Source: Mytilus galloprovincialis (taxonomy: Eukaryota > Mollusca > Bivalvia > Mytilida > Mytilidae). From it: DNA of 64,000 nucleotides. Position numbers and translations under genes: made by a program. Shown piece by piece: positions 590 through 61,144 of this stretch (position 1 is its first letter; each line of letters opens with the position of its first letter). The stretch covers positions 47,128,122-47,192,121 of the forward strand of contig NC_134849.1 in assembly GCF_965363235.1 (NCBI RefSeq), in the 5' to 3' direction. The notes under the pieces were generated by a model. That model was given only the letters and a program-made list of their open reading frames with translations. It searched no databases and was not told the origin of the DNA.

Positions 590-2168
590 ATGAAAGTCAC
601 ATGTATTTTGTTGTTTTCTTTGGTCCTTGTCTGCCTTTTTGAGGATTGCGAAGCATGGAGGCGTAGAAGATTTCGAATTCGAATTCGAGGAAGGAAATTT
701 TTTCAGAAAGTTGTAGTTCCTTATTTGTATAAGACCTACGGTAAGAGAGATGCTCTTCTTAGCAACCCAAATTTATTCGTTGCTAAGGAAGTATACGATC
801 GCTACAAAGCGAAGATAATGCAAGCAGAATTATCTGGACACCACACATGTGTAGCTGATGATGTATGCGGGATATCATGTATCAAAAACAAATGTACTTG
901 GTACTGTGACAACATTTGTAACATAATGGCCGATGACAAGGTGAGACTTAGTTATAAGTAAAGCACACGCATTTTTTGTTATTAAGGAAACTAGTTTATT
1001 TTATTCAACACTGATGAATGAAACGCTTTTTAAATTTTGTCACAAATCGGGAAACTTTTGATTCCAAAAAACATTAATAGGTTTGAGAATTAAATAAGAG
1101 AGAGATAAGTAAAGAAAAAAAAGGAACACACAACATATAAAAACTAAGAGGACCAAGAAAAACAATCCACACCAAAACATGTGAAGATCTCAGTAAATGC
1201 ATCGATCAGAGTCTGAAGCAGACATCCTTACACATTGTGTAACATAAATAAGGATAAAATATATTTTTTTTTATAATAAACATTCCTATAAAAATAAAGA
1301 ATCAGACAACAATTGATATCCGTTTACAATAGGAAATAGAAAATGAATATGTTATAATCATGATAATGTGTTGATTATTGAATATTGTTTTTACAATTTC
1401 ACCTTTGAAACCAAGAAAATAAAAAATTACACTAACATAAATGTGTTTTTTTATATACATATACAGTTCAACTGGCGAGGGGAATTGGTTGCATTACCAT
1501 GCAAATTTTCAGCATACGACTATACTGGTGCTGGATACTTTTATCCGGCAGATCTGGCCTTCCATGTCAATGGGCATGGCAGAGAAAGCGACAATATGAT
1601 GGTTTTTAAACGTTTAGATCAAAATGGTGAGTGTATAATATTCAAATATTGGAGACAAAGTATATTTATGTAACAGAAATTATTTCAAGAACTAGATATA
1701 CTATTTATGATTCCGATGGGTTAACATTCCCTCGAACAGCAACATTGCAGTAAAACAAGATAATTTATTATCCGACTCAAATTCGGGCATTACAAATAGA
1801 TTGTGCTATGAACTTTGAATAGGAGAACTGTAATGATTTCCCAAACTGTCCATGTCGAAAAAGTTATGTTCCTTTAATTTTACAATTCTTCAAGTAGCAA
1901 AGCAACCATGCAATTTGAGCAACGGAGAAATTCCATGATACCAAATAAGTCTTTCCTATTCCATGTATTCAATATCATTACACAAAAAAGCAGTAAATAA
2001 CAAAAATACCGAGCTCCATAGGAAATTCAAAACTCTCTCTGTGTTACGTTTTTGATATGCCTCCTTTTCAATTATCAATTATTTGTCATTAAAGGTGATG
2101 GCAGGGTATCAGAAATTGAGTTTGGTAATACAAAGAAACATCTTCTAATTGACCAAGAAACCTGTTAA
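590..2168 (+). CDS. Gene 1: secreted cationic Cys-rich EF-hand protein (mytimycin-like architecture), 194 aa
   Basis: Coding exons are 590-940, 1467-1626 and 2095-2168 (351+160+74 nt), with GT-AG introns of phase 0 and phase 1. Residues 1-22 are a signal peptide ending CEA. Residues 23-50 are basic (WRRRRFRIRIRGRK, then a Lys/Tyr-rich stretch). Six cysteines follow at 87, 93, 97, 102, 106 and 110 (spacing 5-3-4-3-3), then Cys129 and terminal Cys194. The loop DQNGDGRVSEIE at 168-179 is a canonical Ca-binding EF-hand with Asp1, Asn3, Asp5, Gly6 and Glu12; the second intron splits its Gly4 codon. The reading frame runs on past 940 to 961, but this is intron read-through: the gtgaga donor at 941 matches the paralogues. 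This is the most divergent copy, with only one RIRGR cationic module where the others have two. The role is inferred to be antimicrobial or calcium-linked secretion; function is unproven. Confidence 0.85.
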
Positions 2169-2609
2169 AGATTTGATGTGAGTTTTTCTTTAATACTATT
2201 TTACTTTGAAGTTATGACATGCATTTACTTTTAATAGATTATCATTAGAAACAAGTAATCATAAAGTTTTTTCAAAGATATTTAGAAGAATTGTAATCTT
2301 AGATATCTGTCATTTCAAAAAGTTTCAATTTGAATTCCTATAAAAAATATTATATTATAATTTTAAATTCTTATTTAATATATAAAAATGTGAATTTTTA
2401 GATTAACAGTGAATACTCTCATATTTGTAAAAAAATAAACAACTTTGAAACAAAATAATCAATGTCAAAATGATTGTTTCGATTATATGGAAATTTAAGT
2501 TTTCAAGTTAGTTGATCAAATTTCCATGCGATTATTTGACATCCTATTTTATGATATTTGCGTGTGTTTATTTTCACGATAGTTATTAAAACTGTTTTCT
2601 AATTTACAG

Positions 2610-2750
2610 GTAATTGGAAAAGAACAACGCCAGATACACCTAAAATACGTTTGACAGTTGATAAAAGTGTTATTCTTATTTTTCACGTTAATCATATATT
2701 ATAGTTAGCTGGAAAATGTTTTTAGCAAAATAAATTATGCATCATTCAGA
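2610..2750 (+). terminator. Gene 1 3' UTR exon with polyadenylation signal
   Basis: The stop codon is followed by 9 nt and a donor (gtgagt, 2178). The acceptor aatttacag ends at 2609 and the exon start aligns with the last exons of genes 2-4. AATAAA lies at 2729-2734, so cleavage is expected near 2750. The 3' UTR is short, about 150 nt. Confidence 0.6.
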
Positions 2751-3435
2751 AGTTCGGTTGGTGTTTGTTTGTCTTGTTGTTTTTCGTATTTTTTCTGTTA
2801 TTAATTAAACAGACTCTTATTTGTTATTTTTGAATCGTTTAATTATCTTATGGCGTAACCTTTGAAAGTCAATTATACAGAATGGGGTTTTTCATGGTTG
2901 AATGCTTTACAGTGACCTATAATTGATTGAATTCGATCATTTGAAAGCTGACGGATAATTGTCTCATTGGAATTCAACCTATATTCTCATTTTTATAAAA
3001 TATAAATTTAACGTCACAATCATTTATATTAACCATCCCCCAAAATAAATCTCATTAGTTGTGTGTATGCTTCAGAAAATAATTTTAAAAAAATCGCAAT
3101 GCCAGCTGATAAGACTGTTGGTGGGACTTAATATATATTTATATTGAAGATTACGTTTAGTTTCATTGATTGAAGTTCAGTGAAAAATAGAAATACACAC
3201 ATGACAAAATATTACTAGATACCCGAAAGAGCACGTGTTGCACACCGGCACTTCATTAAAGTGAATTATTCTTTTTAAAAATGGAAGTTTTAGTCATATT
3301 TCATCTTTTACTGCTGATAATTTTCCCTTCTTATAATTTGTTTTTGTCTTGTATAGTGTTAAAGATAATAGACAAAAAACGCATGTTTTTAAACATTTAC
3401 ATCATAGGATAACAACTCAAATAACGAGTTCACCG
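2751..3435. other. AT-rich spacer
   Basis: No gene is supported. Bases about 2860-3000 look like a very degraded family A fragment (gacctataattgattg and gtctcattggaattc). The rest is simple AT-rich DNA. Confidence 0.4.
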
Positions 3436-3439
3436 CAGA

Positions 3440-4080
3440 TTTAGGCTAAAATGTCTGATTTGTAGATCTTGTCTTGCTTATATCAAAGGGTTGTTTTTCT
3501 CTAAAAAAGTTATCAAGAAAATTGGCAAAAAATGGTAATCATGTGAGAATTGATATTTATCAATGAAGGACAAACACTTCAAGGAGTCTAATAACGGTTT
3601 TGGTCATGTAAGATATCTTCTTTGTCATTTTTGTTCTTTGAAGGCTCTATCGTTAAAAGTTTTTACGATATAAGCCAAAACACAAGAAAATAAAAAAAAA
3701 AAATGGTAGAATGACCATCAAAGGGCAAGGAATCGTCTTGACTTATTTGTAGATATTGTTATAATTGATTATTTTGGTATTGAAATGTTTCGAAATAATA
3801 AATGTAAAAAATGGTAAAATTCGTCATTTAAGGGCAACAACAAAGGTTTTATCTTTCTGAAGAGATTTTCAAAATAATCAGCAAAATTTGAATTTTACCC
3901 ATGTGTTCTATCTTTAACTATGTCGGCCATCTTGGTTGGAAGGCGGGGGTCATCAGACACATTTTTAAAACTAGATACCCCACTGATGATAAAGGTTCGA
4001 TTATTTTTGACCCAGTTGTTCCAGAGAAAAAAGTTTTGTTAAAGTTAACAAACGAGAATAATAAAAGTGGATCTTTGATA
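3440..4080 (-). repeat. Family F bivalve repeat, reversed copy
   Basis: On the - strand this matches the units at 26310-27475, sharing the 'catggctaaaaatagaac' and 'actagataccccactgatgat' type stretches. It is a degenerate, incomplete copy. The short + strand reading frame at 3901-4125 lies inside it and is not a gene. I recognise this family as widespread in bivalve genomes. Confidence 0.6.
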
Positions 4081-4084
4081 TTTT

Positions 4085-4690
4085 TATTTCATTTTCATGT
4101 CTTTATTGTCTTAAACATCCCGTGATTGTGTTATTGTGATATGGTAATTTTTGTATTCTTGTCTTTCATTGTTACTTATGTACTTTGTCTACATGTCCTT
4201 TTGTGTTTCTTTGTTGCATATGACTTGGTTGTGTGTCTGTATTGTCTTTCATTTTTTGCCAATGTGCTTCAAGTACGATTAGCTATAGTTGTTATGTGTC
4301 CTTTGGTCTTTTGTCTCATTTGAAATCATACCACATCTTCTTTTTTATATGTATTTTATTTCTATAGACTATCCCAATAAAGTTTCGTCATCCAAAATTT
4401 GAATGGAACTGAAGACTTGGTTTATCAAGAGATGAATTTCATCCCAGCTTTTCGATCTGCTGGTTGACGTTTCGTCCCCGAGGGTATCACAGTAGTCAGC
4501 TTTTCGGTGAAGACATGCATATCAATTATATTGTCATTTTTATGAATTTCCTGTTACAATACTTAGATTTTTTTATCCCAGGAATAGACTACCTTAGTCG
4601 TATCTGGCACACCTTTTTGAAATTTTTGGTCCTCAATGCTCTTCAACTTTGTACTTGTTTGACTTTATAACTATTTTGATTTGAGCGTCA
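4085..4690. repeat. Low-complexity TGTCTTT-rich stretch plus family A and family D ends
   Basis: 4120-4270 is T/G-rich with repeated tttctttgtt-like words, similar to 47180-47430. 4270-4350 ends in the family A terminus (ataccacatcttctttttt). 4440-4500 carries 'gacgtttcgtccccgaggg', found reversed at 11645-11665. 4560-4690 resembles the family D copy at 29770-29900 (gctcttcaactttgtacttg, gagcgtcactgatga). Confidence 0.5.
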
Positions 4691-5160
4691 CTGATGAATA
4701 AAGGCAACAGTAGCATACCGCTGTTCAAAATCGGGGTAACAAACTAAAATTGAGGGAAACGCATTAAATATAAGAGGAGAACAACGACACAATATCAAAA
4801 TGTAACACACAGAAACAGTCTAAGCATTAGACAAAATCCGCCTGAATTTGGGATAGAAAAGTACCGTGACACGTCTAATAGTAATGTGAATTCAAACTCA
4901 AATATAAGAGAAAACAAACGACACAACGGAAACACAACGTCAAAATGTAACACAAACAGAAACGAACTATAATTTAACAATGGCCATATTCCTGACTTGG
5001 TACAGGACATTTTTTAAAGAAAAAAATGGTGGGTTGAACCTGGTTTTGTGGCATGCCAAACCTCCCTCTTTAAGGGCAATGTTAAATATCACATTAAAGT
5101 TTCAACATAACATTACAGGACTACAAAACAAATAAATAAGGGAACATATCAGACAAAGAA
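4690..5160 (-). repeat. Interspersed repeat family C, reverse orientation
   Basis: The reverse complement matches 24985-25270: the words for ttcgaacagcggtatac, gttacattttgacg, and gtcctgtaccaagtcagg are shared in the same order. Two internal parts are repeated (gaaacacaacgtcaaaatgtaacac occurs in variant form at 4790 and 4930), suggesting a small tandem duplication. Reading frames inside it are repeat-derived. Confidence 0.65.
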
Positions 5161-5164
5161 ACAC

Positions 5165-5605
5165 ATGAATAATAGCTACTAAAAGGCACCAGGTTTAAAA
5201 TTCAATACGCCAGAAGCGCGCCTCGTCCACAAAAGACCAGTGTCGCCCAGATATAAAAATTCGAAAGTCAAAACAAGAATAAAATTGTACAGCACTGAGG
5301 ATCAAAAGTTCAAAAATGTTGTGCCAAATACGGCTAGGGTTGTCTGCTAGGGATAAGAACATCCTTATAATTTAGAACAATTTATGCTATTGCAAACAGT
5401 AAATTTTATCAAATGAATATAAAAGATATTCATGATAAAACTGAATTAACTAATTACCGAAAACAAAACCCGGATACAGTACATAAACCAACACAAAAAA
5501 TAGACACAACCGATTTGAGTCTTATGCAGACGAACTGCGTGTCTGGCGTATTAAACTACAATCATGGTACCTTTGACAACTATTTCTTTCAAATGAAAGA
5601 AATAC
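5165..5605 (+). repeat. Interspersed repeat family D
   Basis: Begins 'ggcaccaggtttaaaattc' and contains 'cgtctggcgtattaaactac' near its right end. Related copies are at 11360-11720 and, reversed, 29770-30095 and 24750-24870. I recognise it as a common Mytilus repeat, from memory only. Confidence 0.6.
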
Positions 5606-5609
5606 AACC

Positions 5610-14226: not shown

Positions 14227-14910
14227 TTAATGACCTGACAACAGTATCGTAACTATATCCCTTCTTATAAGTCTGTTTAAAGGTTTTGTAAGCTTTTGAG
14301 ATGAATACTGACATTTTTGTGCTTTGTAAGGAATATTACCATAAAAGATTGGATGTGAAATACCTGAACGTATAAGATGTCTGCACGTTGAGTTATATTT
14401 ACGTATTATGTCCTTATACCGATGATAAAATTTAGTAAATGTTTTGACTAGTTTGTGATATCGAAAACACTGGTGTAATAATTTTTCAGTAATACATACA
14501 TTTCTCTCGCTAAAATATAATATACGAGCGAATCGTACAAGTTGATATATATAAACACCATAAAATGTTGACAAGGGAACGTCACCATCTAATAATGGAT
14601 AATTAACGATAGGAAATGAAAAATCATCTCTTTCATCATAAATATTTGTATTAAGCTTCCCGTTAATGATATAGATATCAAGATCGAGGAAAGGGCAGTG
14701 GTCATTGTTCGTATTAGCTTTATTCAAAGTAAGTTCAACAGGATAAATTTCTTTAGTATACATACTGAAGTCGTCATTATTGAGAGCCAATATATCATCC
14801 AAATATCTAAAAGTATTGTTAAATATTTGTATCAAATGTTCCGAAGGATCTTAGATGCACATTAACTTATTTTCATTTATTAAACTATGTCTGATATACA
14901 AAAAAACAAA
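14227..14910 (-). pseudogene. Penelope-like reverse transcriptase fragment (palm to C-terminus)
   Basis: The frame is open from just below a TAA near 14850 down to 14227. It carries the catalytic FRYLDDILALNN motif, PVELTLNK, the CPFLDLDIYI block, YDERDDFSFPIVNYPLLDG and YGVYIYQLVRFAR, in the order seen in animal Penelope-like (PLE-type) reverse transcriptases. The N-terminal fingers with the KLHK and STLYTSIP blocks are absent, so the copy is truncated. It lies directly downstream of the Mab-21 pseudogene on the same strand, a chance neighbour. The relative at 27812-29197 is more complete. Class assignment is from motif memory. Confidence 0.7.
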
Positions 14911-14929: not shown

Positions 14930-16890
14930 CTACTGTTCAAATGCTTGCAAATCTTCAAAATACAACTCATTAACACATGATATTAAAGCCGTATCCGATA
15001 TTAAAAATGCTTTGCTTGCGGAATCTGGCTCGCCGAATAACTGCAGTGCGATTCCAAGAAGAGAAAAAGCTTCGGCTTTCGTCAAACGATTCATTAAAAA
15101 ATCTTCATTTATAACCATTTGAAGACCTCGGAGAGATTCTTGACATTTCCTAACATCATTGAGATGATAGTAACATAGAAATAGGAGAAAATAAGCATAC
15201 GCTGTGCATGAATATATATGTCTTCTGTTCAAATGGTGAATTTGAACTTCATCTGGTATCAACGAATACGTAGAAGGCCAGCGAAACATTAAAACATCAA
15301 CAAACATTGTTTTCATCAAACTAACAAAATTCTTTTACTGAAATGTTTTCTGTTTTAACAACTGGTAATGGATATCCGCCATATTCATATAGAGGTGAAG
15401 TTTTTCGGTTGTACAATTCGATAAAGAATACATAATGACATGTAAAACTTTAATGTACTGTTTTGTCTTATAGAAAAGCGAAGCAACCATCAGCCATCCA
15501 GATACAGCGTCATGATAAACACCCTGTAGCAGAGAACTGAGACATGTTTTGTATTCTTTGTATTGGTATTTATTATTACTATTCATTGGTATATACTGAA
15601 CGCGTCTTTGACAGACCTTAGACATGAAATATTTGAATAAGTGTTTTATTGAAGACTGCTTGTGCGATACTATCGATAGTATAATATTATTAAATACAAA
15701 TAGTTCCGTCATTGCTAATGCATTATTTATACCATGTAATAAGATTGATTTAAGTATTTTCTCTACATCTTTGACATGCCTTTCTTCCGGTAGCAGGTGG
15801 AAATTTCGCATTTCTATAGCAAAGTTAGATATTGGATCGGAAAATAGAATGCATCGTCAACCATAGACATGCAATGTACTTAGTGTATCTAAAAGTATTT
15901 CACGAGCACGGCCCTCTATTTTGTTTTCAAAAAGGTTGTTCTCTGGAATGAAGAAATGCAAGCAAGCTACGTACTCAACACAATAAATCAGCCTGGTAAA
16001 ACATCGCATAAAACAAGGTATCAAACTATTAGGTTTCCATACGGATTGTGGCAGTTCTTCTGATATCCAGAAAAATATTGTCTTTAGGAAATAAGAACAG
16101 AGTAAATTCTTACATCCGGGGTACGTAGCTATAACATCTTTTGAAATAATTTTCAAGAGAGCGTAGCACAGTAATTGAGTGTGTGAAAAAGTATAAGAAG
16201 TTTTTCACCAACCGAAAAAGATACTCTCCATTCTAAATATTCTTTTGTCGATCCCTTAACTCCCACCGGTACAAAAAGTACTGCGTGTTTTATAATACTT
16301 TGTTTGATATCATGACTCGGCCATGAGTTATTGGATCTTATTATTCACGGTACTGCAGATGACACCCATGTTTTACAATGTACACACATAGCTACGTCAT
16401 ATATACCATTTTCATATATACCATTTTCATCAGTTAGGCACGGTCCATGAATAATATCTGTGACATAATGCATTAACCATCATTTAACTAATATACTCGA
16501 ATAACATTTTTTACCATTTTGATCTTCACATAGTAAAAAAACTAAACGACTATCACTAAAGTGTGCATGTTCTAATATCAAATGAATATAATAAGGTATC
16601 ACGTCGTCTATTTCCATTGAAAAGTATGTTATATTTGGATACAAGCATGGGTTTTCTTTTTTAAAAAACCTCGAAACCGTGTAATACCTTCATCATATCT
16701 ATATCACTGCCTCGTATCTCAAGGCCTTCCCCAAAGCTTCCACTTGTAATTTCTGTTAAATCCTTGTCACTTGACACACTGTCCATAACAGCGTTCATCA
16801 ATCGCATTCGTTTAACATACTATTCACTACCTACTATATTTTGACACAGATAAAGATACAGTGATATTGATATGTCTGGGGTTATATTGT
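14930..16890 (-). pseudogene. Mab-21 / cGAS-like receptor (cGLR) pseudogene
   Basis: The - strand reads as a family member from an intact acceptor (ctaattacag, ending 16891) to a stop at 14930, about 650 codons. The nucleotidyltransferase signature is present: SGSFGEGLEIRGSDIDMM (about 16690-16745), with the GS motif and the metal-binding D-I-D pair. AMCVHCKTWVSSA, VPVGVKGSTKEYLEWRVSFS, YALLKIISKDV and HFFIPENNLF follow, all typical Mab-21 domain blocks, then a helical TPR-like C-terminus. Disablements: TAG at 16820-16822, frameshift near 16660, TGA at 16480-16482 and 16345-16347, frameshift near 16175, TGA at 15857-15859 (in place of an expected Trp), TAA at 15335-15337, and a 15-bp tandem duplication near 16400. 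A retained splice site means it is not a processed copy. Bivalves are known for large cGLR expansions sensing nucleic acids; this copy is dead. Confidence 0.88.
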
Positions 16891-16984: not shown

Positions 16985-17777
16985 TGTACACTGCACATGG
17001 TTAACACACATTCACATCAAGACCTACACAGGGAATAAGACACAAACAGGGTTAACACACATTCACATCAAGACCTACACAAGGAAAACGATACAAACAG
17101 GCTTACGCGACAGGTACATCTAGACCTAAACAAGGAACAAGATACACACAGGTTTAACAAACATCAAGACCTACACAGGGAATACGATACAAACAGGCTA
17201 ACGGCCAGGCACATCTAGACCTAAACAGAGAACAAGATACACACAGGTTTAACAAACATCAAGACCTACAAAGGGAATCCGATACAAACAGGCTAACGCG
17301 ACAGGCACATCTCGATCCAAACAGAGAACAAGATACAAATAGGTTTAACAAACATCAAGACCTACACAGGGAATACGACAAAAACAGGTTAACGCGAGAG
17401 GCACATCTAAACCCAAACAGAGAGCTAGATACACAGAGGTTTAACAAACATCAAGACCTACACAGGGAATACGATACAAACAGGCTAACGCGACAGGCAC
17501 ATCTAGACCTAAACAGAGAACAAGATACGCACAGGTTTAACAAACATCAAGACCTACACAGGGAATACGATACAATCAGGCTAACGTGACAGGCACATCT
17601 AGATCCAAACAGAGAACAAGATACACAGAGGTTTAACAAACATCAAGACCTACACAGGGAATGCGATACAATCAGGCTAACACAATAGGCACATCTAGAC
17701 CCAAACATAGAACAAGATACACAGAGGTTTAACAAACATCAAGACCTACACAGGGAATACGATACAAACAAGCTAAG
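16985..17777. repeat. 96-bp minisatellite, about 8 units
   Basis: The word 'acatcaagacctacacaggg' recurs at 17161, 17256, 17352, 17448, 17544, 17640 and 17736 (variant bases in some units), a period of 95-96 bp. A shorter, diverged unit lies at 17015-17100. Each unit also carries 'gcgacaggcacatctagac' and 'aacaagatacacacaggtt'. It ends just before the 21-bp array. Confidence 0.9.
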
Positions 17778-17887: not shown

Positions 17888-18394
17888 GTGCATTTACCTT
17901 TATATAATGTGCACTTGTCATTATATGATGTGCAAATACTTTATATGATGTGCCAATATCCTTATATGATGTGCAAATATCCTTATATGATGTGCAAATA
18001 TCCTTATATGATGTGCAAACATTATTATATGATGTGCAAACATTATTATATGATGTGCAAACATTATTATATGATGTGCAAATGTACTTATATTATGTGC
18101 AAGGATCCTTATATGATGTGCAAATATACTTATATGATGTGCAAAGATCCTTATATGATGTGTACATATCATTATAAGATGTGCAGTTTCCCTTATATTA
18201 CGTGCAAACATCATTATATGATGTGGTTGTGTCATTATATTATGTGCTTGTAATCTTATATGATGTGGTTAGGTTTATTTCATTATATGATGTCGAAACG
18301 TCATTATATGATGTGCTTTCATCGTCGTTATGGTCAATGAACATGATTACGATTAGAATGATTACTGTCTACGTCATAACTGATTCCGATCTGC
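17888..18394 (+). repeat. Left arm of large inverted repeat: 21-bp minisatellite plus unique flank
   Basis: Units of the type TTATATGATGTGCAAATATCC repeat every 21 bp (starts at 17941, 17962, 17983 and on), roughly 20 units with variant linkers. The inner 18328-18394 flank is unique (cgtcgttatggtcaatgaac to ctgattccgatctgctt). The whole arm reappears inverted at 23691-24212. Because 21 is a multiple of 3, several frames stay open on both strands as heptad repeats; these are not genes. Confidence 0.92.
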
Positions 18395-23690: not shown

Positions 23691-24212
23691 GATCGGAATC
23701 AGTTATGACGTAGACAGTAATCATTCTAATCGTAATCATGTTCATTGACCATAACGACGATGAAAGCACATCATATAATGACGTTTCGACATCATATAAT
23801 GAAGTAAACCTAACCACATCATAAGCACATAATATAATGACACAAACACATCATATAAAGATGTTTGCACATAATATAAGGGAAACTGCACATCATATAA
23901 TGATATGCACACATCACATAAGTATATCTGCACATCATATAAGGATCTTTCAACATAATATAAGTATACTTGCATATCATATAAGAATGTTTGCACATCA
24001 TACAAGTACATTTGCACATCATATAAGTATATTTGCACATCATATAAGTATATATGCACATCATATAAGTATGTTTGCACATCATATAATGATGTTTGCA
24101 CATCACATAAAGATATTTGCACATCATATAAGGATATGTGCACATCATATAAAGGTGTTTGCACATCATATGATGACAAGTGCACAGCATATAAAGGTAA
24201 ATGCACAAAATA
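23691..24212 (-). repeat. Right arm of large inverted repeat: 21-bp minisatellite
   Basis: The reverse complement of 17888-18394: the unique inner flank (agcagatcggaatcagttat at 23688-23707) and outer end (cttgtcatcatatgatgtgc on -) both match. Units read TGCACATCATATAAGTATAT with a period of 21 bp. The order of variant units differs in the middle, so the arms have diverged by unit turnover. Long open frames at 23742-24260 (-) and 23837-24328 (+) are repeat artefacts. Confidence 0.92.
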
Positions 24213-24249
24213 TAATGAAAAATGGTCATAACAAGACAGTGTTGCCGTT

Positions 24250-27811: not shown

Positions 27812-29197
27812 TTACGACGTAAGGAACATATCCGATATCATTTGAGAAACGGTTATTCCATAACGATCAACCAACTCGTGATGGCGTCCGTAAAATTTAC
27901 GAAGAGATGATTTCAACTTCACCATTTGGAACTCTTGGTTCATTAGCTTCCTTGTGAGCAGCAACCCTCTATCAAGAAAATTATGATAGGAAATGCAAGC
28001 ACGGGAATATTGTATCAATTGGGAGATACATTCCCCGTATGCAGGTGCTGCTGGAATGTTGCTACTTAGAAATGGAAAGTTCACAATTGGAAAGCTGAAA
28101 TCATCTCTTTTGTCGTAAAGTTTTGTCTTCAACCGACCTTCATTGTCAATTTCTAGATGTAAGTCAAGATATGAGGCCGACTTAACTGTATCTGTAGTAT
28201 CCTTTATCTCTAGCTCGATCGGATAGATGCGTTCCACATACACACCAAATTTTGAATTATTTAGTGAAAGAACATCATCTTTATAGCGAAAAGTAGAGTT
28301 AAATGATATTGCTAACTTCTTATCTTTCTTCTTAAGAAGTTCCTGCATGAAGTCAGCCTCATAATAATAAAGAAACAAGTCGGCAAGTAGAGGGGCACAG
28401 TTTGTTCCCATTGGAATGCAGACAGTCTGTTGAAAAACACGTCCTCCGAACGTAACAAATATGTTGTCAATCAAGAAATCAAGAATCTTGATAATATCAG
28501 TTTCAGAGAATTTTTTGTTCGAATCATAGTGATCCTTTACAGAGTAGGATTTATCCCTCCCTAAGACAAGATACTTGTATCTACGTTGGCCATTCTTTTT
28601 TACGAAGCAACGCAATACCAACTCTTTCAATTTGTCTTTTAGTTTGGAATGTGGAATACTAGTGTACAGAGTAGAAAAGTCAAATGTTTTAATACTGTTA
28701 CAAGATGAAAGAGATTTAGATTGTATGTACTCTAAAAGATCTTTGGAATTTTTAAATATCCACATCTGATTCACGCCCCCTCTAGAATAGGCAGTTTCAC
28801 AATAGATTTGAAGCCCGTCTTTGATTGCTGATAAAATAGATGTTAATAATTAAGAAAGAGGTTTCGTGGAGCACTTGGAAGACCCAGCAATATACCGTTG
28901 TTTGTAAGGACACTTATGTAGTTTAGGTATCCAATACAGTGATGGTAGATCCAGTTCTTCATCTTTGGTTGAAATTCCAAGGGAACACAGAACAGACCTA
29001 TGATTATCCAGGATTTCCTCTTTGGTAAGTGTCGTGAGAGTATATGTTGAGTTTCCAAGTGAATTGTCAATACCTAATTCGTTTATCAAGCAGTTAATGT
29101 AATGAGTTTTACATACAAAAACGATGTTGTTTAATATGCACATAGACCAAGGTGAGCGACATAGGCTCTTTAGAGCCTCAAGTGTTTCTGCTATATG
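27812..29197 (-). pseudogene. Penelope-like reverse transcriptase, nearly full RT with one in-frame stop
   Basis: One frame runs from just below TAA (29198-29200) to the stop at 27812, broken only by TAA at about 28850. Motifs in order: PSLYWIPKLHKCPYKQRYIA, then after the stop FDFSTLYTSIPHSKLK, CIPMGTNCAPLLADLFLYYY, the catalytic box FRYKDDVLSLNN (Lys where Leu or Ile is usual), SYLDLHLEI and YDKRDDFSFPIVNFPFL. These are blocks of Penelope-like (PLE-type) reverse transcriptases. No GIY-YIG endonuclease is visible downstream. The element is 5'-truncated relative to a full polymerase. Low decay implies a fairly recent insertion; RNA-templated replication by this copy is improbable. Confidence 0.78.
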
Positions 29198-39918: not shown

Positions 39919-41701
39919 ATGAAAGTCGCATGGATTCTTTTGCTATCTTTAGTCCTTGTCTTCCTCTTAGAGGATTGCGAAGCATGGAGGGTTAGAATAA
40001 GAGGAATGCGATTTTTCCGAAAGGTATTACCCAGAATTCGAGGAAGGCGCCTTATACGCAAAATTGGTCATATAATTAAAGGCACAATCAAAACCATTAC
40101 GAGAGTAGCTGTACTTAACAACCCATGGCTTTTCTTTGCTAAGCAAGTATACGATCGCTACAAAGCAAAGAAAATGCAAGCAAAATTATCTGGACAACAA
40201 ACATGTGTAGCTGATGATGTATGCGGGGGTTCATGTATCAATAACGAATGTATGTGGTACTGTGACAACGTATGTAATATAATGGCCGATGATAAGGTGA
40301 GATGTATTTATGAGAAAAGCATATGCGATTTTATTAATCAAAGATCTTTGTAAAATTTTACTGAACACTGATTGGTAAAACGAGTTTTTTTGCATTAATT
40401 CATTGGTTTATACTTCGAAAACCCATGTTTCCAAAATTAATTGTGTCACTTGAGTAAACTTCTCTGCGGCTGCTGCACCAGTTAAACTTGCAGTCACGAT
40501 ATAGCCATGAGGTCTGACAGTGGTGTTAAACTCCAACCACCACCTATTATATGTAAAACATTGTCTATTTAATTGTTATATATTCGTGCTCGATACACAT
40601 GAATAGAGAATTTGAATATTAAAAAACATGATATTGTAAACAAAAAATAAAAATGATAGGTTTGATAAATCAGAGGGAGAACAAGAAAAATACCAAGGTG
40701 ATTTTCAAGATTTTTAAATTCTCAAGTCAAATACACACGGACCCTGCCATGGCAAAAATGAACCAGCCAAACTAACAAAGAAAAGCAAAAAAAAAAAAAA
40801 CAATACGAATTAAAATTAGGACCACAAAAACCTAGCCGGGATATGGTCGCAGGTGTTTCTGCTCTACATGTGACAGCCTTTATAAAATTAAACACATTGA
40901 TAAACAAAAAAAAAATCAATTTCCAGACATTTATTAGTATAAAATATATGATTAAAAATGATTACGTTAACGTTATAATGAAGTGATAATTGATTTTGTT
41001 TCACACTGACATACTTCTTTTATGACTTACAGTTTAATTGGCGAGGAGATTTAGTGGAGTTACCATGCAAATATTCAGCATACGACTATAGTGGTGCTGG
41101 ATACTTTTATCCGTCAGATCTTGCATTCCATATTAAAGAGCGAGGCCGAGAACGTGACAACATGATGGTTTTCAGACGTTTAGATCAAAATGGTGAGTAA
41201 ATAACATTCGAACACGAGGAGCCAAAGCATAGTTACGTTACTGTCATATTTGCTTGAATATTTATTGATTTCAACTGGTCAAAATTACCCTCGAAAAACC
41301 AACATATTGAATTGTTTTATTTACTATCCAATTCGGTTTTAGGCAATGTGAAAATTGTGTTATTTACTTTGAACAGTGAAACTGTAATGAAATCTCCAGC
41401 TGTCCATATAAGCGCTATTGTTCTTTATATTTAATAACTATTTATTGAGCAAAGCAATCATTTTATTTGAGTAACCTAGTCTGATTGCATGATACTTTAG
41501 TCTTTTTTTTATTGCATTCATCGCATTATTCTACTTTAAGTGTTATATTTTCGATATTATACATGTTATAAGTTTTAGCTAAAACAAAGGCCCTGTTTTA
41601 TTATTTATCCGTTAATTTTCATTTAAGGCGATGGTAGAGTCTCCGCAAGTGAGTTTAGTAATACAAAGAAATATCTGCTGATTGACCAAGAAACCTGTTA
41701 G
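39919..41701 (+). CDS. Gene 2: secreted cationic Cys-rich EF-hand protein, 203 aa
   Basis: Coding exons are 39919-40296, 41033-41192 and 41628-41701 (378+160+74 nt), phases 0 and 1. The signal peptide is residues 1-22. The basic segment 23-62 holds two copies of an RIRGxRxxRK module (RVRIRGMRFFRK and PRIRGRRLIRK) followed by a Lys/Ile-rich amphipathic-looking stretch. Cysteines are at 96, 102, 106, 111, 115 and 119, with Cys138 and terminal Cys203. EF-hand loop DQNGDGRVSASE is at 177-188. The ATG is fixed by the AG immediately before it and by the paralogues. It is close to gene 3 in the signal and cationic regions but shares NIMADDK at the exon 1 end with gene 1. Probable role: secreted host-defence or Ca-binding peptide precursor; unproven. 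Confidence 0.88.
40685..40890 (-). repeat. Degraded Penelope-like tail in gene 2 intron 1
   Basis: 'aacctagccgggatatggtc' and 'gctctacatgtgac' resemble the tail word order at 27650-27720. The match is weak. Confidence 0.3.
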
Positions 41702-50171: not shown

Positions 50172-51742
50172 ATGAAAATCGCATGGGTTCTTTTGTTATC
50201 TTTAGTACTCGTCTTCCTCTTAGAGGATTGCGAAGCATGGAGGGTTAGAATAAGAGGGCGAAGATTTATAAGAAAGGTAGTACCCAGAATTCGAGGAAGG
50301 CGCCTTATACGCAAAATTGGTCATATAATCAAAGGCACTATCAAAACCATTACGAAAGTGGCTATTATGACCAACCCTGCTCTGTTCGTAGCTAAGCAAG
50401 TATTCGATCGCTACAAGGCAAAGAAAATGCAAGCAGCATTAGCTGGAGAAGAAACATGTGTAGCTGATGATATATGTGGGGGATCATGTGTCAATCAAAA
50501 ATGTATGTGGTACTGTGACAACATATGTAAAGTATTTCCCAGTGAAAAGGAGGTAAGATGTTGTAAAGCACAGCCATACTTTTAAGAACATACAAGAAGC
50601 ATGCAAGAAATAAGATTTCCATTTTTAAACGTAAAAAGTATAAGATACATGAATCACATAATATCATTCTGTCATGTTATCAGTGTTACTGCATCAGACG
50701 CGCATAGCGACAATGTTTGTCTCTTCAGTGATACTGACCAGAGTCTAAATATGCGTTGTATTGATTTGTTTCACAATATATAATGAAATTTAAAAAAATA
50801 ATTGCAATGTATAAACATTTATCCGTAACAGCGTGCACTAACTAATTGGATCGTGTTTCAGGTTGATAATTCATTGCGATCCAATGTTTCTCATAACAAA
50901 AGAAAGACATGCTCAATTAGTATTTGGTTTATGTCTTTACAGTTTAATTGGCGAGGAGAATTGGTTTATCTACCATGCAAGTATTCAGAATACGACTATG
51001 CGGGCAGTGGATATTTTACTCCTGCAGATCTTGCATATCATATACAAGAGCGTGGACGTGAACCTGACAACATGATGGTTTTCCGACGTTTAGATCAAAA
51101 TGGTGAGTTCATTGTGTAATACTTTAGATTGATTTAGGTAAGGGACATAACTCTTTAAATACCGCTACGGTTTTTCCAACCATTATAATACCCTTCTAGT
51201 AAAACACATCATTTGCCTTTAAAGAATTTAATGTTTTAAAAAAATAATTGATTGAATTGACTTTAGGAAACATATTTGTTCATAATTTTATTTGCCTTGC
51301 TTATGTATCAGCGTCATAATGTTTCCCGATGCAAGCGAATCCCATAAAACAAAACATCCGTTTATACATGTATTGCAAAATGGACATAAAAAGCATTTAG
51401 AATTGTCAATGAGTGATAACTTGATTATGAAAATTAAACCGTAAAAAAGTAAAAGTAAATATATAAAAGTAATTTAAGAAAGAAAATAAGACACTTAGTG
51501 TACTGTACATTTCATAAACATATTTCATGATACCATGGTCTCTTTCTATTTCAATTTATTATATCTCATCATACAACATTTGGTTTTATGCATGTTTTTT
51601 TTACGTATTTGCTAAAACAAAATCCTTTAATTGTTTTCCGATTAATTAATTATTCTAAATTATTCCAGGTGATGGTAGAGTCACTGCCAGTGAGTTTAGC
51701 AATACCAAGAAATATCTCCTAATTGATCAAGACACCTGTTAA
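50172..51742 (+). CDS. Gene 3: secreted cationic Cys-rich EF-hand protein, 204 aa
   Basis: Coding exons are 50172-50552, 50943-51102 and 51669-51742 (381+160+74 nt). The donor is after GAG (gtaaga), which adds one Glu codon compared with genes 1 and 2. The signal peptide is residues 1-22. Residues 23-62 carry about 15 Arg/Lys and no acidic residue, with twin RIRGRR[FL]IRK modules. Cysteines are at 96, 102, 106, 111, 115, 119, 139 and 204 (eight, so four disulphides are possible). EF-hand loop DQNGDGRVTASE is at 178-189, preceded by an amphipathic helix (MMVFRR) and followed by a Phe. This is the cleanest copy: every splice site is canonical, the leader donor is intact, and AATAAA is present. 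Likely secreted from haemocytes or epithelia if it is an antimicrobial precursor; this is inference. Confidence 0.9.
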
Positions 51743-54189: not shown

Positions 54190-56240
54190 ATGAATACAGA
54201 AATTATCAAAGGAGTTGCTGTTGCGCAGAAATTCAATAAACCTAGTGATTGTAGCGCATAAAGAACACATATTTTAAGCGAAATACTTATAGCCATTTTT
54301 ATTATGTCAATTTCTTAACCCAGACAAGATTCCTATCCCAATCTCAACCTTGTCAACAATTCAACAAAAGTGGCAATTTTTCATTCAAATAACATGTAAT
54401 GATATCAATCCAAATGCCGAGGACACATACTTCGTCCCATCAGAAATGTTAGTCCTACTTCACCTACAGTATTTAACCGATCTATAAACATGATAAATAC
54501 GCCGACATCATCGAGTGCAAAATAACATTCCTTATCACTTGCTATAAAATCATTTCTACAATGAATACTCATCAAATATGGTTTTTAGAACATAAATTAC
54601 TAATATTAAAATACATCTTTACATTAACCTCACTTTCAGGTATAAAGATATCATTTTTTTTTCACGAGACAAGTGCTTGTGACCATCCACAAAAACTTGC
54701 GGTCATCCGATTTTCGGTACTTCAGTACTTTGATTATATTTAGGAAAAAAGCTTTGACAAGTCCTTATTTTGGCAGAGTGTAAAAAAATATGTTTGAGTA
54801 CATATGAACTAACGATACACCTTAAAGTATATTACGCAATATCAAGATGTTGTTTTTTTTTTATTATTCTTGTGACAAAATATTGTTATTTGCAACATCG
54901 CCCAGGAAATAATGTTACATACGTCCTATATGTATTATTATTTCCTGATCAATTTCCTATCCTCAAAATCACGAGCATGTAAATTGCGTAACATTTCTTT
55001 TGCTTTCATAACTGTTTGGTCAACTATCAAAGTACACATACCGACTACTTTTGCTAACTCGCAGGGGTAAGTGAACTATTTTCATCGAAACAAATCACTT
55101 GGTTTCTGTAGACTATAACCAATTTTGTTTTCATTTAAGAGTGGTGGGATGCAGTGTAAACAATTATTATGAGCAGTTTTTCCGTTGAACGAACCTTTTT
55201 TGTATATTGTATTTCCATTACGGCCGTCTCTCACTCTGTTGTCGTATATGATATTGCATTATCTTCCCTGAAAAATCTTTTATATTACCGAATAAACTTT
55301 TTTCAAATCAATCGGCAATGCTAAGTGCAAAAGTAGTTGCGCCAAAGGTAATTTTAAATAAACATAAAAAAATGCGTATTTTAAATCCGTACACATGCTG
55401 CTCTATTAATGGAAATACAATATACAAAAACGGTTCGTTCAAAATTTAAGCTGTGAAATTGGCAAAAGTAAAAAACAAAAGATTTGCCACATGTCATCAA
55501 AATATTTCCAATCCCAGTCAGCAGGGCTTTCGGTTTCAAATTGACATATAGTTGGTTGGCTCAATACGCAACCTGATTGTGGTAAAATGATGTTCCAATA
55601 GTCCAATTGCCAATTACGAATTTGATTCTGTTATTACACACTTTTTACGCAAATTACTTCCCTTTGTCAATCTTAGACTGGTTCCATACCGGACAAAATT
55701 GGCTTTAGCCAATGCAAAGCATGATGAATTGAAAGTGATGTATAGGCGGTTTAACTAATTTTTCACGTAAAATAATTTCGGATGTCAATAGTATTTAGTT
55801 GAACAACAAATTAATGTTATTAAATAGCCTATTTTGCCAAGTTGATCAAGAGAACATTTTTTTGTAAAATAAACGAACATACGGATGACGACGGATGACA
55901 ATACTTTAGTAAATGAAAATATTTCACTTCAACCTTGATATGAATTTATTGTAATCAACATAGTACTTTTTGTTAGTTAAAATCTTTGGATTTTCAGGCA
56001 TTTTGGGATAACATTTTAGAACTTACTGCATCGAAAGTATTCTACTCAACAACAAGAAATGTCTATTATAGCTTGAAATGCTTTATCGAATTTAATATCA
56101 TACGTATGTGGTATGGTTTAGGGAGAATCTGCTTAAATGCTAACAAGGAAATTTAATATCTTAAATTTGTTAGACTAACAAAAATACAATTTTCATGAAG
56201 ATAATAGCTAAATGAATGTTTATTTTAAAACTCAACCTCC
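54190..56240. other. Spacer upstream of gene 4
   Basis: No gene is supported over about 2 kb. Small frames at 54561-54743 and 54770-54982 have no domain. TGCTAACAAGG at 56138-56148 resembles the leader end of genes 1 and 3 but is followed by aaattt instead of a GT donor. Confidence 0.4.
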
Positions 56241-56244
56241 AAGT

Positions 56245-56420
56245 TCAATTTCTGTAACGATGACATGTTGTGTGGGTCAATTTTTACATCTGGTTCATTG
56301 ATTTTTAGTTGAAATATATGTCAATAGGTTTAAACATGCAAAACACCCATTTCAACTACTACTATCATAATTTGACTATTGATACTTTAATGAACACATT
56401 TGTTTTCTTTTTTCTTTATT
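56245..56420. repeat. Family H repeat upstream of gene 4
   Basis: 'agttcaatttctgtaacgat' and 'aaacatgcaaaacacccatt' match 45437-45560, with which it also shares its left flank. Confidence 0.55.
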
Positions 56421-57037
56421 TTTTTCCTACACATATATTAAACAATGAATACGTATTTTTTGTGAAAACGTCTGCAAAGACGAGACACAGAATACAGATG
56501 TCCCTTTCCTTAAAGCAAAATTATCCGTTAATAAATAATATATAATTATTGAATTTTGATGAGGTTTATATAATGATTCATCAACCCTATGATAATTAAT
56601 TGTATTAACTTATATCAAAAGTTGGCAATGGATTTATTATTATCTCCGTTTTTGTCCATCTCAAATTGTTTGTATTTGCTCTAGACATTAAACTTCTTTT
56701 TTTTATACTAGGTATACTACTAGTATCTGATTTGGCAGTTGTTTAACTTTAATGATATGAAATATATTTTTTTTTAAATTACATCGAAAAAAAAAAGACT
56801 AAAATTAGAACGTGCATGACGTAATAAGCCTAGAAACTATAATAGGTACACGTAAAACTCCAAATCCTGTGTTGTTGTGTTGTTGTAGTACATGTATAAT
56901 ACCTTACGTCATTTTTTATTCATATACAATGTATGCCAGGACAAATATGGAACAAAGCAATAATTGATAGCTTTCTAGTTCTTTTCCATGAATGTAGATT
57001 TTAAATGCCTTACTAGTATGAATAGTTTCTATTTTAG

Positions 57038-60000
57038 ATGAAAGTTGCATGGATTCTGTTGCTTTCTTTGGTCCTTGTCTTCCTCTTGGAAGATTGCGAT
57101 GCATGGAGGCGTAGAATAAGAATAAGAGCCAGGCGTTTTACCAGAAAGGTATTACCCAGAATTCGAGGAAGACGTCTTCTACGCAAAATAGGTCATGTAG
57201 TAAAAAAAACCTTCAAAACAATTGCTAAAGTAGCTGTACTTACCAGTCCATCTCTATTTGTATCTAAAGTAGTATACGATAGGTTCAAAGCAAAAAGGCT
57301 GACAGCAGCATTACGTGGACAAACATGTGTAGCTGATATCGTATGCGGAGGTTCATGGTTAAATGACAGATGCACGTGGTTCTGTGATAACATATGCAAA
57401 GTATTTGCAAATGATACGGTATGATTTTGTTAATAATCAAGAATATATACAAAGATTTTATAACAAAACAGCAACTGGTTGTATTTCAGCAATTGATTAT
57501 AATCTACATAAATAAGACTGGATTTTCGGGAGAGATCAGTTTGCGCCAAAAATGCGTCCTTTTGCGCCATAACTCATTTCTTCAATGCAACGTTTGCGCA
57601 ACATGTTTTAAAATTACATGGTATCATTTGCGCCAACAATCAAATATAGGATTGCACCAATTAGAAGAAAAATGACTTCCCTCTCCTTTATTCGGACTTG
57701 GAACTTGCAGTTTACACGGCAAATGTTTCCTTTTCTGAAACATATCTTCTTCTTACTGCTGCTGCATGGGTACTTCCCAATTTAATGTATGTAGTAGCTT
57801 TTGAATTCACTTTATTGTCCAAAAACACAAACCTTGAAGGATGAAATGCATAAAACAGTTGATAATAATTCCTAATAATAATAAAGCCTATACGCATGAT
57901 TGGAACAAAGTACTGTGTCATCAACATATGTGGGTAAAAAATAATCAGCAAAAGCTTCTATTTTCTTCTTTATTGGCATTACTTTATTAAATATTCAGCA
58001 AAGCAATAAATTTTTTCTCTCTCTGTACATTGACTGTTTAGTGCATTTTAAGCCTTTCTCTTCAGATGCTCATCTTCATGGTGAAACATCTCCGAACATA
58101 TGATACTTTTTAAGCCAAAAATAAGAATATATTCAATATATATATTAATCATTGATATTAATGATAGATATGTGTACAGGTAAATTGGCGCAAATGAGTT
58201 CCGCAATTGATACATTTAGAAAACAAAATTTGGCGCAAAAGGACTGCTGTCGGATTTCCGATATATTGTATAAAATATGGGCGCATTGCATTTGCGCCGA
58301 TTTTTGAAAATTACAATCTTTCATTTGCGCCACACGGTTATATTTCATTTGCGCCAAAAAAATAAAAACTTCATTTGCGCCATGTTACAGATAATTCAGG
58401 TAAACAATAACGGAAGCGTTAAATATGCATTGCTCTAAAAGGTTTGTCTCGACAGTATTTCTCTGAATAATAGGTTGAGTTCAATGCCACACTCATTTCT
58501 GAAGCTGAGAGTCACTAAGGTTTATAAATATATATAGTGGTCACATGTTCGAGGTGTCAAGATGAACATTTTCAATTTAGACATAAATACAGGAGAATTA
58601 AGTGTGTACTATTTGATGACCACACTTTTAGTTTATTATCAAATCATACGTTCTGAATAATGGAGACCAAGTCCTTTATTGGTACACCAAATAAAGAAAA
58701 CCTTGCAAAGCCAGTATAACAACTGAAATGGACCGCAGTTGATGATAAAACGGACTATCTTTTTTATCGTTATGTTATGCACTTCAGAGGAGGAATTTTC
58801 CAGACATAAATACATCAGGGCCGTCGCTTACAAGGGTAGACATATAACTTTACAATAGTGTATCCTGCTTAGAATAGTTCTAGTGTAAACTGTTTTCTTT
58901 CATGTTTCATATTGGGTGTTATGATCACGCTTATTTATAACAGTGAGAACTGTGTTTCATTAAGGTTTTAACATTACTTGTGTGGTTTAATTTCGACTGA
59001 TTTCTGACGAATATATTTAATTTTGCAAACACAAACTTTTGTATATGTTTTATACTATTTACCTGTATTTACCTGTAATATTGGCGCAAATGAAATATTG
59101 TTTGTGGCGCAAATGAAGGATTTTTTTGGCGCAAATGAAATGCCAATTGGCGCAAAAGCAAAGCACCGCAAAATATAAACTGTATACTGCGAGTGATTTT
59201 ACAGGGTGATAAGTGATTGTTGTAGTAAGAGGTCCCGCATATACATAATATACAAAAAATACATTGCACTTATTTCTAAATTAACACGGTTTAATCCATC
59301 ATTTTGTAATTAAAACATGTATGTGTCAAGTCATAAAATGACATAAAATGATGTTTAAGGTTGATGTGTTTGAGCTTTTGAATTTGCCATTTGACAAATA
59401 TCGAGCTGTCTCTAATTTTTGTAATGTTACTTTTATGAACTCCGTGTTGAAGACCGAACTTTCACCTATAATAGTTTACTTTTACAAATTGTGACTTGGA
59501 TGGAAAGCTTTCTCATTGACACATATATCACATCTTTCATTACAGCTCAACTGGCCTGGAGAATTGGTCACGTTACCATGCAAATTTTCAGAATACGATT
59601 ATACTCGCAGTGGATATTTTTATCCTGCAGATCTGGCATATCATGTAGGAGAGCGTGGGCAAGAATCTGACAATTTGATGGTTTTCAAATATTTAGATCA
59701 AAATGGTAAGTGTATCATATAATATTCAATGAAAAATCATAATCATAAACTGCGCCACAATAATTGAAAGACCAAAAACTAATGAAAAAATCTGTTAAAA
59801 TGAATTCAATCTATAAATTTGATGAAATATGCACTTTTTTATTAGAGAAATGCAATTAATTATAAGACGTTTTGTATAAAGGGAGAACATAATGTGTTTT
59901 GTCATTTAATTACGAATGTTTTATCAGGTTCAAAGTATTATTATTAGTAATATGCTTCTGAATAACAGAGAAGTGTTTTGATTATAATCTAGTATTTTAT

Positions 60001-61144
60001 TCCATTTATCATACGAATCAAATTCTTAAAAAAAAAAATGGAAAGGGACCTAGACGTTGGTAAAACAAATCTTTATTTTTGATTTTTCAATTTGTTTACA
60101 TTAAAGGCGATGGCAAAGTCTCCTCACAAGAGTTCAGCCAAACAAGTAAATATCTTCTGACTGATCAAGAACTTTGTAAAAGCACCAAGGTGAGATATAT
60201 TAATAACTTTGTTTCTTTTTTATTTGCAATTATTACTTATTTTTGCTGCAAATATTTAAATAAATTCCCAATTTATTAACACAGGTGCTATATATGTTTG
60301 AACATTTATTGACCATCTTTATAGTGTTTTTCAATATATGACAAAAAAAATCACTAAGCGCACACGAAAATGATAAAAAAATTAAAAAAAATGGCTAGTT
60401 GGCTATCCTCAACCTGAAATTGACAGTGAAGTCTTCGAAATCTATTTTGTAATTTGATATCAGTAACAGCAACAATACTAAGCAACCAATGTAGACAAAT
60501 GGTAGATATGATGACATACAATCATTATGGAATTAAAAAAACCACAGACAAGTGAAATATAAAAAAGAAGATGTGGTATGATTGCCAGTGAGATAACTCT
60601 CCACAACTCCACAAGAGACAAATGACACAGAAACTAACATATATAGGTCATCGTACGGCCTTCAACAATGAGCAAAGCCCATACCACATAGTCAGCTATA
60701 AAAGGCCCCGAAATGACAATGTAAAACATTTCAAACGAGAAACATAACGGCCTAACCCGTGCACAATAAATAAACGAAAAAAAAATATGTATCACATAAA
60801 CAAACGACAACCACTGAATTACATGCTTCTGACTTGCGACAGGCACATACACACTGTGGAAGGATTAAACATGTTATCGGGATCCTCACCGTTCCCCTAA
60901 CCTGGTACAGTAATGATTATATTCGAAAAAATATATATATTTGAGATTCTATTAAAAAAAATCAACGTTAAACTAATTATTTTGGTTGAACCTAATTATT
61001 TTGATTGAAACTTATTATTTTGTTTGAAACTAATTATTTTGGTTGAACCGTACCAGTTGATTTGAAGGATTCTTAGGTTCTTATGTGTTTAATCTGCATG
61101 TTTTTTTTATTAAGTTATGTGTTCTTTTTTTACAGGAGGTTTAA
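57038..61144 (+). CDS. Gene 4: secreted cationic EF-hand protein with altered Cys pattern and extended C-terminus, 210 aa
   Basis: Coding exons are 57038-57418, 59546-59705, 60107-60189 and 61136-61144 (381+160+83+9 nt). The signal peptide is residues 1-22 (ending CDA). The basic segment begins WRRRIRIRARRFTRK and repeats PRIRGRRLLRK. Cysteines are at 97, 103, 112, 116 and 120; position 107, Cys in the paralogues, is Trp. Cys139 and Cys204 remain, leaving an odd total of seven. EF-hand loop DQNGDGKVSSQE (178-189) is intact. After Cys204 the paralogues stop; here the codon is AAA, so translation continues for KSTK and, across the splice, EV before TAA. All donors and acceptors are canonical. 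No AATAAA is evident soon after the stop. It could be a functional diverged copy or an early-stage pseudogene. Confidence 0.8.
57540..59156. repeat. Four clusters of TTTGCGCC / GGCGCAAA in gene 4 intron 1
   Basis: Thirteen exact copies. Forward TTTGCGCC: 57540, 57561, 57627, 58291, 58324, 58348, 58374. Reverse GGCGCAAA: 58187, 58232, 59083, 59106, 59128, 59149. Clusters alternate forward, reverse, forward, reverse, making two facing pairs (57540-58239 and 58291-59156). Many copies are extended to TTCATTTGCGCCA. Confidence 0.85.
59440..59536 (-). repeat. Family A fragment abutting gene 4 exon 2
   Basis: 'ctccgtgttgaagaccgaac' through 'ttctcattgacacatatat' and 'cacatctttca' ends about 9 nt before exon 2 at 59546. 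It therefore supplies the pyrimidine-rich tract of the acceptor (catctttcattacag). Confidence 0.75.
60558..60910 (+). repeat. Family A repeat in gene 4 last intron
   Basis: 'aaaaaagaagatgtggtatga' (read from 60562), 'agctataaaaggccccgaa' and 'gacaggcacatacacac': a near full-length copy in the long orientation. Confidence 0.8.
60965..61050. repeat. Short tandem repeat, about 21-bp units, in gene 4 last intron
   Basis: 'ctaattattttggttgaac' recurs four times with small changes (taattattttgattgaaac, ttattattttgtttgaaac). Confidence 0.8.

Follow-up and report, generated by a model that had tools for sequence, protein, structure and literature searches.

A conserved, unnamed bivalve gene family in Mytilus galloprovincialis with a basic head, a cysteine block and an EF-hand pair

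A four-gene array of an unnamed family

The mussel Mytilus galloprovincialis carries on contig NC_134849.1 (assembly GCF_965363235.1) an array of four genes, G1 to G4, that belong to a real and conserved bivalve gene family without a name. The array lies between contig positions 47128122 and 47192121, a window of 64,000 nucleotides in which all coordinates below are counted; the genome searched comprises 1.38 Gb in 331 contigs. The predicted products join a signal-like segment, a basic head, a block of cysteines (Cys) and a C-terminal EF-hand (EF) pair. We read them tentatively as secreted host-defence proteins, and to this reading, its mechanism included, we assign a probability of roughly 0.45.

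Gene models rebuilt from tblastn matches and splice signals revealed four paralogues on the + strand, with coding spans at 590-2168 (G1), 39919-41701 (G2), 50172-51742 (G3) and 57038-61144 (G4). An original prediction, made from the letters of the window, had placed four same-strand paralogues there and had ascribed to them identical intron phases and a signal peptide, and the rebuilt models agree with its coordinates, strand and intron phases. Every gene reads without interruption from ATG to stop (194, 203, 204 and 210 residues, respectively). The eight introns common to the four genes all have GT-AG ends, the intron behind coding exon 1 being in phase 0 and the next one in phase 1; G4 alone has an additional coding intron, which ends at 61135. 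Finally, all four products start with a signal-like segment, from which we infer secretion.

The family is more than a chance arrangement, given its relatives in other Mytilus species and in Pinctada and substitution ratios that are below 1 throughout. The protein search proposed alongside the original prediction recovered 13 family members at E < 1e-30. A second search with distant members added seven public mussel-like sequences, a frame of the window itself (P0029) and the Pinctada imbricata protein P0031, and a third search added a second Pinctada protein, P0034. Both Pinctada proteins have a MKIAWIL-type signal, an Arg-rich head (net charge +23 and +31), a Cys block accompanied by two further Cys, an LPC motif before the first EF-hand (EF1) and a Cys after the second (EF2). 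Their heads differ in length and wording from those of mussels, yet they are basic. Whole-genome searches with EF and head-Cys queries found no copy beyond the four of the window, counts that are lower bounds; two further matches of the head-Cys query were at chance level (E 0.34 and 0.96).

The ratio of nonsynonymous to synonymous substitution rates (dN/dS) was below 1 in all 24 region-by-pair comparisons (range 0.03-0.67), a comparison made without significance test and with two regions of only 22-24 codons, and the copies appear to evolve as under purifying selection. Synonymous rates (dS) exceeded 0.3 in 20 of the 24 comparisons, and the copies are therefore old. In a tree of 21 rows, several of which were exon 1 only and from which P0023 and P0026-P0030 were left out, G1 grouped with P0005 of M. 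edulis (support 98) and then with P0006 of M. coruscus (97), while G2 grouped with P0001 of M. trossulus (98) and then with P0004 of M. coruscus (76). Consequently, at least these two lineages seem to predate these Mytilus species.

A public protein of 210 residues, P0002, is 98.6% identical from end to end to the product of spliced G4, the residues encoded by exon 4 included. It is encoded on a public contig of 1,085 bases. Since intron 1 of G4 measures 2,127 bases, the contig would represent a spliced transcript, and a G4-type gene is likely to be transcribed.

Text searches for sequence strings or for the M. trossulus locus name did not find the family in the literature, in which subscription journals were thinly covered. 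The family is also undescribed in the accessible text of papers on mussel antimicrobial peptides, EF-hand proteins and shell proteins, including PMC7653742, PMC5549309, PMC3039611, PMC9656538, PMC6401078, PMC4517812, PMC6641155 and PMC13001179. These literature searches provide weak evidence of novelty. So far, then, the undescribed family is known from Mytilus, mussel-like sequences and pearl oyster, in a group rich in antimicrobial peptides, and its layout of basic head, predicted laddered hairpin and EF pair was not found named in the searches made.

Architecture of the proteins

The heads of the four proteins correspond to what the original prediction described as a basic segment with few acidic residues. 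Rich in Arg and Lys and 64-74 residues long, they begin with Trp and carry net charges of +13 (G1), +20 (G2), +18 (G3) and +24 (G4), with only 4, 1, 3 and 1 acidic residues, respectively. The heads of G2-G4 contain a strongly amphipathic segment of 18 residues, with peaks of 0.82-0.85 against shuffled means of 0.57-0.60 (reached by 0.3-2.7% of 300 shuffles), and such a segment is also found in the heads of P0012, P0013 and P0024. A KAKK/KAKR sequence lies near the end of the head in G2-G4, not in G1, and several dibasic sites occur within the head itself. Overall, it is the charge of the head, and not its wording, that seems to be conserved, as would be expected of a part that binds membranes or polyanions.

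A peculiar head is found in P0007 of M. edulis, in which residues 23-60 consist of repeated PRVR-type units of seven residues each. The whole-genome EF and head-Cys searches revealed no copy with a PRVR-repeat head of this kind.

Next to the head lies the Cys block. The Cys spacing of 5-3-4-3-3 had been attributed to all four genes. A six-frame scan of the window finds this spacing three times, in G1, G2 and G3, but it does not hold in G4, where Trp stands for the third Cys (C3) and leaves a five-Cys block. Two further Cys are located in the EF part of each copy, one before EF1 and one after EF2, and the mature part of G4 has an odd number of Cys, seven.

Structure prediction, likewise proposed at the outset, was carried out with AlphaFold2 on P0001, the orthologue of G2, and returned a hairpin for the Cys block and an EF pair. 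A first run (13 rows) reached a mean predicted local distance difference test (pLDDT) score of 57, with a poor EF part; a second run with 16 rows, including the Pinctada proteins, reached 73.7. The alignment of the second run left out P0004, P0006, P0009 and P0011 (predicted models with odd ends) as well as P0023, P0027 and P0028, and included P0029, the frame of the window that corresponds to G3 exon 2. Both models place hairpin strands at residues 105-112 and 115-122, with block means of 82-87 in the second, and C111 faces C116 while C107 faces C120. In a comparison across relatives with a Cys pattern that presupposes Cys at C1 and C2, C3 and C4 were both missing in P0003 and P0013, proteins of different tree branches. 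The AlphaFold2 models, the Cys spacing and the pattern of Cys losses suggest that the block forms a laddered beta-hairpin.

The C-terminal part of G1-G4 is an EF pair, as revealed by both sequence and AlphaFold2 model. The original prediction of one canonical EF-hand loop is correct for EF2, the 12-residue loop of which (DQNGDGRVSASE type) is canonical in all four genes, but the domain is a pair, with an EF1 (DYSGAGYFYPSD type) that is degenerate and has lost ligand positions. Note that mussel EF1 loops were taken from alignments and that a six-frame EF pattern misses EF2, the loop being split by an intron. In the Pinctada proteins one EF1 loop is nearly canonical (DADNNTLISPSE) and the other canonical (DADSNGVLSHEE), which suggests to us an ancestral EF pair with two sites and a decay of EF1 in the mussel lineage. 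When compared to an EF pair of the calmodulin type, that of G1-G4 belongs to putatively secreted proteins, has a degenerate first loop and is flanked by two Cys.

Among the four genes only G3 passes a curated Pfam EF-hand cut-off (EF-hand_6, 26.6 vs 25), while the relatives P0003, P0007, P0008 and P0031 each pass one. The P0008 sequence, which lacks the stop used by G1-G3, continues past the EF pair into an acidic C-terminus that contains six consecutive Asp. In line with the original view of a secreted, cationic, defence-like family not recognised as a named one, searches of Pfam, NCBIfam and PDB gave only generic EF-hand and weak below-cut-off matches among the matches listed (60 of 233 in one search). 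SicP-binding, Dockerin, SPARC, XopAW and deiodinase-related matches from Pfam and NCBIfam, the last four of which fall in the EF part, were weak, below cut-off and were rejected. PDB sequence searches with the Cys block alone and the head alone yielded nothing useful (best E 2.6 and 0.87, respectively), and the VIA-align rows, which cover mainly residues 142-200, are uninformative on the Cys block.

Comparison with mytimycin and other known systems

The original prediction regarded the array as a sister family of the antifungal mytimycin and described the mytimycin precursor as a signal peptide followed by a Cys-rich peptide and, at the C-terminus, an EF extension. Such a plan was indeed recovered in the same genome. 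With a mytimycin peptide as query, three loci (L020, L021 and L022) were found at E 1e-9, 2e-4 and 1.2, and the third, weak in the search, has the same Cys core and EF exon as the others. One rebuilt product has 152 residues, as many as the three parts of the published precursor (23, 54 and 75 residues; PMC8004829) add up to. Signal peptide, Cys-bearing part and C-terminal EF pair are common to mytimycin and G1-G4, and an AG directly before the ATG, present in the four window genes, also occurs in all three mytimycin loci.

It is in the details that the two groups part. The mature part of mytimycin has 10 invariable core Cys according to the accessible text of PMC8004829, whereas the blocks of G1-G4 have 6, 6, 6 and 5. 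A basic stretch precedes the EF domain in all three mytimycin loci (KRKRR in two, GKR in one) and has no counterpart in any of the four genes. Splice signals indicate that in mytimycin a phase-2 intron splits the first EF loop; in G1-G4, in contrast, it is the second loop that is interrupted, by an intron in phase 1, and a further intron, in phase 0, lies before the EF domain. Furthermore, both EF loops are canonical in mytimycin and only one is in G1-G4.

The EF domains were compared with two profiles, one built from ten family EF domains and the other from three mytimycin EF parts. The family profile gave 56.8 and 44.8 bits with the Pinctada proteins, 21.0 with the calmodulin C-lobe, 19.9, 14.0 and 13.9 with the mytimycins and 10.6 with the calmodulin N-lobe. 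Bacterial EF-hand proteins (P0014-P0022) scored 36-61 bits with this profile, but were gathered by similarity to the family and are not controls. With the mytimycin profile, two relatives, P0031 (15.8 bits) and P0003 (12.5 bits), scored above calmodulin (N-lobe 10.9, C-lobe 7.6), which would favor kinship, while the window genes (8.8, 7.8, 7.2 and 7.0 bits) did not exceed the N-lobe. An hhalign alignment of the family and mytimycin EF sets also points toward kinship, with 53 columns, 23% identity and a probability of 91.5, obtained with no unrelated EF pair as control. In the profile scores, EF similarity between the two groups is about that of calmodulin. We consequently hold it very unlikely that the family is a sister of mytimycin, with the same precursor plan, a replaced Cys core and the EF part as a detachable extension: these comparisons support the common plan, and the sister relation is not supported. 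Since the tests revealed no special EF kinship with mytimycin, EF domains may have joined Cys-bearing secreted bivalve proteins more than once.

Other systems share single features with the array. In myticalins, as in G1-G4, a signal peptide is followed by a cationic region; a 5' intron, probable in G1-G4 too, ends directly before the ATG, which in myticalins is at the start of exon 2 (PMC5577615). Their signal consensus is different, an anionic C-terminal extension follows a Lys-Arg site, and neither a Cys block nor an EF hand is described in the accessible text of that paper; with another signal and an EF pair as C-terminal part, G1-G4 are not myticalins. Myticusin, with 104 residues and 10 Cys (PMC10608444), is ruled out as well, the genes of the window having six Cys in the block plus two (five plus two in G4). 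Hairpins of the tachyplesin/polyphemusin type have the spacing C-x3-C-x4-C-x3-C, which the available sequence of polyphemusin III displays and which the inner four Cys follow, as 3-4-3, in three of the four genes; for these, cross-strand pairing is a prediction. Those peptides are short and cationic, whereas the predicted family hairpin is acidic, includes a third, outer pair of Cys and is embedded in a protein of ~200 residues. The penaeidins and arasins of crustaceans provide a comparable plan of cationic head and disulfide domain; they are not known to have an EF hand, and their Cys pattern differs from that of G1-G4. The pairing of a cationic region with a disulfide domain is mentioned as occasional in the accessible text of PMC5577615.

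Proposed function and its alternatives

If G1-G4 are host-defence proteins, the head would be the membrane-active part, with its amphipathic segment in G2-G4. The Cys block would form a two-stranded hairpin in which disulfides C1-C6, C2-C5 and C3-C4 are the rungs of a ladder, and the EF pair would serve as a structural clamp that binds a single calcium ion (Ca) in mussels and maybe two in the relatives from Pinctada. This pair would remain attached to the hairpin because there is no dibasic site between C6 and the EF domain in any of the four genes. If a convertase cuts the protein, it would do so in or near the end of the head, at KAKK/KAKR in G2-G4, and free a linear peptide; without cleavage, the whole protein would act as a tethered cationic effector. 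The original prediction suggested that the precursor is perhaps Ca-controlled. Sea water and the haemolymph of marine bivalves contain ~10 mM Ca, and the EF site would therefore be filled once the protein is secreted, which makes Ca more likely a structural element than an extracellular switch. The conservation of the same layout across Mytilus species and in two Pinctada proteins supports this reading, as do the amphipathic peaks of G2-G4, the low dN/dS values, the match of P0002 to spliced G4, the modeled hairpin strands with the joint loss of C3 and C4 in P0003 and P0013, and a 5' intron that would end at the ATG as in the mytimycin loci and in myticalins.

A bolder version of this mechanism is highly doubtful. 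In it, the EF pair is a built-in, calmodulin-like clamp that is loaded with Ca in the secretory pathway and holds the amphipathic helix of its own head, rendering the membrane-active effector harmless until the head is freed by cleavage or dilution at the target. If true, mussels and pearl oysters would have in common a self-inhibited, calcium-chaperoned defence protein.

Several observations weigh against the defence reading or its mechanism. The dN/dS values do not point to the rapid evolution that immune peptides often show. The head of G1 is shortened and without amphipathic peak (0.40 against a shuffled mean of 0.52), the peak is also missing in P0005 and P0031, and in P0007 and P0034 it is marginal, being reached by 7-9% of shuffles. 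AlphaFold2 modeled the head at low confidence (block means of 48-69 for residues 21-80). The Cys block and linker are acidic (net -2 to -5), and the hairpin itself is therefore not a typical cationic hairpin peptide. In G4, P0002 and P0011, C4 is kept without C3, so that the two partners of the presumed C3-C4 bond do not stay together in these proteins. P0002 could, moreover, although this is the less likely origin, stem from a processed gene copy rather than from mRNA. Finally, secreted EF-hand proteins from the mantle of pearl oyster and abalone have been reported in shell formation (PMC3120837, PMC10741955).

These reports lend credit to another reading, in which the products are shell or extrapallial matrix proteins that deal, through their EF pair and basic head, with Ca and the acidic polymers of the matrix in biomineralisation, and the presence of relatives in Pinctada fits with it. 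The abalone protein is, however, Asp-rich and acidic (PMC10741955), while G1-G4 are basic; the accessible texts on the pearl oyster and abalone proteins mention no Cys block or basic head (PMC3120837, PMC10741955); and term searches in the main texts of shell proteome papers on M. galloprovincialis and Perna found no such protein. A shell matrix role appears unlikely to us. Charge rather than sequence defines the head, and this would equally suit a secreted cationic scaffold or binder of polyanions (mucus, byssus, a heparin-like polymer or nucleic acid) without killing activity. The head of Pinctada P0034, with 31 Arg, no Lys and no acidic residue, and the short PRVR-type repeats of P0007 agree with such a binder, but by itself this explanation does not account for the amphipathic segment in G2-G4, P0012, P0013 and P0024, and we consider it improbable. 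A defence role is the likeliest of the readings considered.

Gene models and other features of the window

Coordinates of the coding exons and associated features are given in Table 1. The AG acceptor directly before the ATG in all four genes leads us to expect a 5' non-coding exon. A blastn comparison of the regions upstream of G1-G4 gave weak similar blocks among many chance ones; the similar blocks terminate in CTAACAAG, after which G1 and G3 continue with GT whereas G2 and G4 have AT and GA there, and no exact match was found to the wording of the M. coruscus 5' exon. A 5' non-coding exon is probable in G1-G4, with a GT donor visible only for G1 and G3.

Table 1. Features of the G1-G4 array, with positions counted in the window.
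Feature	Position	Strand	Evidence
G1, 3' end of probable 5' non-coding exon, extending left beyond the window	1..17	+	ACTAACAAG then GTAATC; resembles blocks upstream of G2-G4; weak, inferred
G1 coding exon 1: signal peptide, shortened basic head, six-Cys block	590..940	+	Open reading frame; AG before ATG; GTGAGA donor, phase 0
G1 coding exon 2: degenerate EF1 and first third of EF2 loop	1467..1626	+	tblastn, splice ends
G1 coding exon 3: remainder of EF2 loop, terminal Cys, stop	2095..2168	+	tblastn, splice ends
G2 coding exon 1: signal peptide, basic head, six-Cys block	39919..40296	+	Open reading frame, splice ends
G2 six-Cys block, predicted laddered beta-hairpin	40204..40275	+	Cys pattern; AlphaFold2 model of G2 orthologue P0001
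G2 coding exon 2: degenerate EF1 and start of EF2 loop	41033..41192	+	tblastn, splice ends
G2 coding exon 3: remainder of EF2, terminal Cys, stop	41628..41701	+	tblastn, splice ends
G3 coding exon 1: signal peptide, basic head, six-Cys block	50172..50552	+	Open reading frame, splice ends
G3 coding exon 2	50943..51102	+	tblastn, splice ends
G3 coding exon 3	51669..51742	+	tblastn, splice ends
G4 coding exon 1: signal peptide, basic head, five-Cys block (Trp for C3)	57038..57418	+	Open reading frame, splice ends, Cys pattern
G4 coding exon 2	59546..59705	+	tblastn, splice ends
G4 coding exon 3, without the stop used by G1-G3	60107..60189	+	Spliced product matches P0002, 98.6% over 210 residues
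G4 coding exon 4: last two residues and stop	61136..61144	+	Agrees with P0002 C-terminus

The interval between G1 and G2 contains other elements. Consecutive pieces of open reading frame on the - strand at 14930-16204, one of three of which (15860-16204) matches Mab-21_C (PF20266, E 5.5e-17), look like a gene of the Mab-21 type that is either broken or interrupted by introns. Reverse-transcriptase-like open reading frames at 27812-29197 and 14227-14850, also on the - strand, are probably transposon remains; an RVT_1 match for 27815-28849 was below cut-off, and 14230-14850 had no Pfam match. A 96-base tandem array (7.4 copies, 90% matches) occupies 17065-17776. Two 21-base tandem arrays, at 17900-18267 and 23847-24215, have 17.6 copies each and are open in several frames, and their units are mutual reverse complements after rotation.

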